DNA of 37,695 nt from Acidobacteriota bacterium (GTDB lineage Bacteria; Acidobacteriota; Thermoanaerobaculia; Thermoanaerobaculales; Sulfomarinibacteraceae), in contig JAHECW010000032.1 of assembly GCA_024641545.1 (NCBI GenBank), forward strand, positions 1 through 37,695, given 5' to 3'. Shown piece by piece: positions 8,363 to 8,960 of the stretch; position 1 is the stretch's first letter; the number at the start of each line of letters is the position of its first letter. The translations under genes were made by a program, and so were the position numbers. Below the pieces are notes generated by a model. The model saw nothing but the letters and a program-made list of their open reading frames with translations, was not told where the DNA came from and did not search any database.

Positions 8363-8405
8363 CCGCCCGCTCCTTGCTATCCTTCCGGCGACGGAGGTGC
8401 TCGGC

Positions 8406-8753
8406 ATGAGCGTTGTCATCTATCACAACCCCGGTTGATCGAAGTCCCGCCAGGCGCTGCAGTTGCTGCGCGAGAAGGGCATCGAACCCGAGATCGTCGA
8501 ATACCTCGAGGCACCGCCGGACGCGGCCAAGATCGAGGGGCTGCTCGCACAGCTCGGGATGGAACCCCGCGAGCTCATGCGAAAGAAGGAGAAGGAGTAC
8601 AAAGAGCTCGGTCTCGCCGACGGCGCGCTGAGCCGTGGTGAGCTCATCGCCGCCATGGCGTCGCACCCGCGGCTGATCGAGCGCCCGATCGTCGTCTCGG
8701 AAAAGGGAACCGCCCTCGGCCGGCCGACGGAGAAGATCCTGGAAATCCTCTGA
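8406..8753 (+). CDS. arsC: ArsC-family arsenate reductase-like selenoprotein (in-frame TGA 8436-8438 = predicted Sec)
   Basis: MSVVIYHNPG[U]SKSRQALQLLREKGIEPEIVEYLEAPPDAAKIEGLLAQLGMEPRELMRKKEKEYKELGLADGALSRGELIAAMASHPRLIERPIVVSEKGTALGRPTEKILEIL. TGA falls at the ArsC catalytic Cys; arginines matching R60/R94/R107 of plasmid R773 ArsC are present (ELMRK, LIERPIVV, LGRPTE). ORF track shows only the fragment 8463-8753. Confidence 0.85.
8454..8471 (+). promoter_or_regulatory. Putative bacterial SECIS hairpin
   Basis: GCGC-T-GC-[AGTT]-GC-T-GCGC: 4 bp, U-U mismatch, 2 bp, 4-nt loop with G at position 2 followed by U; loop begins 22 nt after the TGA. Confidence 0.75.
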
Positions 8754-8807
8754 TTCGAATCGGGTTTTCGCACGGGGATGGTCACCAACCGCAGAAGCGG
8801 CTGCAGC

Positions 8808-8867
8808 GGCAGGGACAGCGGCCGCGGCAGGGACGGCGGCAGGGACAGCGGCCGCGGCAGGGACAGC
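8808..8867. repeat. GC-rich tandem repeat, period 30 bp, about 2 copies (GGCAGGGACAGCGGCCGC core)
   Basis: GGCAGGGACAGCGGCCGC at 8808-8825 and 8838-8855, each followed by GGCAGGGAC(G/A)GC. Confidence 0.85.
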
Positions 8868-8960
8868 GTCAGCGCTCCGAGCACGCTGATTGCGCGACGC
8901 TGAGTCGCCGGAGGCGGCCCAGAAGGCCTGAGCTCCAACCGCATACGCTACACTCCACCG

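Follow-up and report, generated by a model that had tools for sequence, protein, structure and literature searches.

The analysed window, a stretch of 37,695 nucleotides corresponding to contig C71 of the host genome, carries on its forward strand (8406 to 8753) a gene of the glutaredoxin-dependent arsenate reductases (TIGR00014/COG1393) whose product is very probably a selenoprotein. At the position of the catalytic cysteine the gene has an in-frame UGA (8436 to 8438), and we infer with high confidence that this codon is decoded as selenocysteine (Sec). A Sec nucleophile at this TGA had been proposed in a sequence-only reading of the same DNA, and the proposal is supported by the Sec machinery of the host, by the alternation of Cys and TGA among homologues and by a SECIS-like hairpin. 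As a kind of gene, Sec-containing arsenate reductase (Sec-ArsC) has been known since 2005, when 14 UxxS sequences with SECIS elements were described from the Sargasso Sea (PMC1088965); 77 genes were found in the GOS survey (PMC2398784), and the protein is also listed in PMC9312934 and PMC13188914, in line with the earlier suspicion that it already appeared in selenoproteome surveys. A literature search of partial coverage found no report of Sec-ArsC in the Sulfomarinibacter family, and the acidobacterial gene described here is a well-supported further example.

Read through the TGA, positions 8406 to 8753 (forward strand) give a product of 115 residues, MSVVIYHNPGUSKSRQALQLL...LGRPTEKILEIL, followed by a terminal TGA at 8751 to 8753. 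The TGA at 8436 to 8438 is the sole interruption of this full-length ArsC frame, and a Shine-Dalgarno-like GGAGGTG (8393 to 8399, forward strand) can be seen in the sequence 6 bases 5' of the ATG. With the site entered as Cys, the product matches the TIGR00014 arsC profile from end to end (positions 1 to 114 of 114) at 149.9 bits, where the curated equivalog cut-off for arsenate reductase (glutaredoxin) is 106.05 bits, and it also matches PF03960 ArsC (80.6 bits). Relatives with solved structures align with it along its whole length. The alignment with plasmid R773 ArsC (PDB 1I9D, 1JZW) is ungapped over the whole length with an offset of one, and places U11, R59, R93 and R106 at Cys12, R60, R94 and R107, so that the catalytic residue and the three arginines correspond; the R773 enzyme has Cys in a CGTS motif and a longer C-terminus, whereas the window protein has a predicted Sec in the motif USKS. 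Standard-code ORF calling recovers just a 96-residue ORF with a TTG start (8463 to 8753). The sequence-only reading had claimed a continuous protein of ArsC length, replacement of exactly the Cys12 codon, retention of the three arginines and truncation by automated callers from near 8463, and all of these agree with the profile match, the alignment and the ORF call. Since plain-code calling trims the gene to a piece without the active site, counts of Sec-ArsC in Acidobacteriota are probably too low. GC-rich short repeats (GGCAGGGACAGCGGCCGC...) lie at 8800 to 8880, in the interval that separates the ArsC gene from the one after it, and an Rfam scan of the window returned a tRNA-Ala as its sole match.

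The host belongs to the Candidatus Sulfomarinibacter family (Thermoanaerobaculia, Acidobacteriota), a placement based on the kinship labels of the genomes and on the contig of one of its three Sec relatives described next (G019:C49), which over 2,067 bases is identical to the Candidatus Sulfomarinibacter kjeldsenii contig JACXWA010000113.1. In a set of 61 related genomes, the top four ArsC matches were the window gene and three genes from a second genus in the family, each of the four with one TGA at the catalytic column, while the next five, also from genomes of this family, have Cys there. Identity of the window protein is about 60% to its three Sec relatives and 52–61% to close Cys relatives. 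A survey of the phylum (396 genomes, plus fetched loci) brought the number of distinct TGA-bearing ArsC-family genes to 30, comprising the window gene, the three from the same family and 26 more. The TGA lies at the catalytic column in 30/30, and the stray stops in relatives that would count against Sec are absent, with no TAA, TAG or second TGA in the matched frame of any of these genes. Codons at this column were limited to TGA, TGC and TGT (150 loci), the 116 remaining loci, many of them from Proteobacteria, having TGC or TGT; Cys and TGA alternate at exactly the catalytic position, the pattern for which the earlier reading had proposed to look. The gene selA was found in 29 of the 30 TGA genomes, the thirtieth (G156) having a strong tRNA-Sec (69 bits), compared with 23/31 Cys genomes (Fisher p = 0.026).

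These comparisons bear on two other origins of the TGA. The gene could be a recent pseudogene in which a Cys codon mutated to TGA and decay has begun, and it fits this account that neither of the two congeneric genomes compared gave an ArsC match and that the SECIS candidate of the window gene, described below, is not the strongest. However, the gene has no other lesion and keeps all residues that are invariant across the compared relatives, and chance decay cannot explain why 30 genes, all from genomes that decode Sec, have TGA at the catalytic codon alone; given that all 30 share this column, the TGA in the window is more than chance, and we regard decay as very unlikely. An error of sequencing or assembly that turned TGC or TGT into TGA is conceivable in a draft genome of 310 contigs, but the same codon is TGA in independent assemblies of relatives and the frame is otherwise uninterrupted, which makes such an error highly improbable.

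The genome itself (5.38 Mb, 99% complete) contains all four of the Sec genes whose presence the sequence-only reading had made a check on its proposal: selA (504 bits), selB as one 640-residue ORF, selC as a tRNA-Sec with anticodon TCA (76.5 bits), and selD (368 bits). The host selenoproteome, sampled through family searches, further includes three genes of the AhpC/TSA family with one TGA each. Two encode AhpC-type peroxiredoxins in which U occupies the peroxidatic site (...DFTFVUATE...; L179 on G000:C166, TGA at 1630, and L180 on G000:C36, TGA at 1639), both with strong hairpins 3' of the TGA, and the third encodes a thioredoxin-like protein with a UGGC motif (...FPTUGGC...; L183 on G000:C125, TGA at 1606). 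Together with the Sec machinery, these three catalytic-site TGA genes indicate that Sec is very probably used in several redox proteins of the host. The PF00384 molybdopterin oxidoreductases of the genome were considered as further selenoproteins and set aside, as they are without in-frame stops. A changed genetic code in which UGA specifies another amino acid is extremely unlikely, and no observation spoke in its favour: TGA is the stop codon of 16 of the 22 genes in the window, the ArsC gene among them, which as the usual terminator speaks against a general code change, and the host has the full Sec machinery.

A bacterial selenoprotein gene is expected to have, just 3' of the UGA and inside the coding sequence, a hairpin with a G in its small apical loop, which here would aid decoding of the UGA at 8436 to 8438 by SelB with tRNA-Sec. 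RNA folding of the window gene predicts such a SECIS-like hairpin at 8454 to 8471 on the forward strand (GCGCUGC-AGUU-GCUGCGC, with a U-U mismatch; -8.1 kcal/mol), spanning +16 to +33, with an AGUU apical loop that starts 23 nt past the UGA. This candidate is moderately unusual rather than exceptional, as 16 of 200 codon-preserving shuffles of the gene match it. Among the 30 TGA genes, 12, including the three relatives from the same family, have a different element, a seven-pair hairpin from +11 with a GGUC-like loop at +18 (GGUCA in the three relatives). All seven pairs form in these 12 genes and in 0 of 116 Cys genes, and at its second and third pairs both bases differ from one lineage to another (C-G to G-C and A-U to C-G). 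This +11 hairpin was looked for in the window gene and rejected, since just four of its seven pairs form there; the hairpin at 8454 to 8471 is both weaker than the GGUC element in the closest Sec relatives and placed differently, with its loop at +23 instead of +18. The three other predicted selenoprotein genes of the host have loops of GGUC at +18, GGC at +21 and, in the thioredoxin-like gene, AGUUG at +17, and among other TGA genes L034 has AGUU at +18 and L152 has a loop at +23. By analogy with the thioredoxin-like gene, L034 and L152, the candidate hairpin at 8454 to 8471 is likely the SECIS of the window gene.

Sec and Cys have been swapped more than once at the catalytic position in the ArsC family, with at least three changes on the starred branches of a tree of 69 sequences that includes the distant UxxC genes. 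For the four Sec genes from the same family, a single clade was neither demonstrated nor excluded (AU p = 0.32). It is possible, though we lean somewhat against it, that Sec arose in the window gene separately from these relatives, with a SECIS at another spacing (+23, AGUU loop). If so, Cys and Sec would have replaced each other repeatedly at a single catalytic position in ArsC of Acidobacteriota. With close Sec and Cys relatives now gathered, a direct test of what Sec contributes to an ArsC-family enzyme becomes possible.

By homology, we infer arsenate reduction as the function, and arsenate is slightly favoured as the main substrate. In the mechanism that we propose, the Sec selenolate would take the place of the catalytic Cys12 of R773 ArsC and, by analogy, attack an arsenate that the three conserved arginines hold in place; the resulting Sec-arsenate adduct would be resolved by glutathione and glutaredoxin to release arsenite, and three glutaredoxin-family matches were found in the host genome. 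Arsenate reduction with a Sec nucleophile is the leading hypothesis suggested by the sequence comparisons, and its main rival, which differs in substrate alone, is that Sec is inserted but that the protein acts mainly as a general thiol/selenol reductase with glutathione or glutaredoxin, as other orphan proteins of this family may do. We consider this broader role a serious contender, a little short of an even chance. The gene for R773 ArsC sits in an ars operon. The neighbours of the window gene encode a Bmp-family protein, NIF3, a PD-(D/E)XK nuclease and an Fe-superoxide dismutase, and neither arsR nor acr3 adjoins it. On another host contig, an arsR-like gene, so named from a reading of its ORF, is followed by acr3 (L178, G000:C4, 1049-2550), with no arsC adjoining the pair in the surrounding sequence covered. 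The presence of this pair in the genome is in favour of arsenate reduction, and its separation from the window gene speaks for the broader role, as does the naming of the nearest solved structures, which are called arsenate reductases or putative ones, some without tested function; against the broader role, the product scores above the TIGR00014 equivalog cut-off and has retained the three arginines of R773 ArsC.

Compared with the Sec-ArsC already described (ArsC 1, UxxS; COG1393/TIGR00014), the window gene belongs to the same family and has the same motif (UxxS), the same column for Sec (that of the catalytic Cys) and a bacterial SECIS, here a candidate; those sequences came from marine metagenomes, whereas the window gene belongs to the genome of a Candidatus Sulfomarinibacter family member. 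The Sec-ArsC-like UxxC type (ArsC 2; NF041106) is of the same Pfam family and has Sec at the same column, but three residues past Sec it has Cys where the window protein has Ser. Many of the acidobacterial relatives found are of this type (KPTUxxC, TUxxC). UxxC-type ArsC-family genes with TGA at the catalytic column were observed in other Acidobacteriota at L147, L152, L153, L155, L157-L161 and L163-L166, and several genes of this type are without the +18 hairpin and may have a loop near +31 instead.
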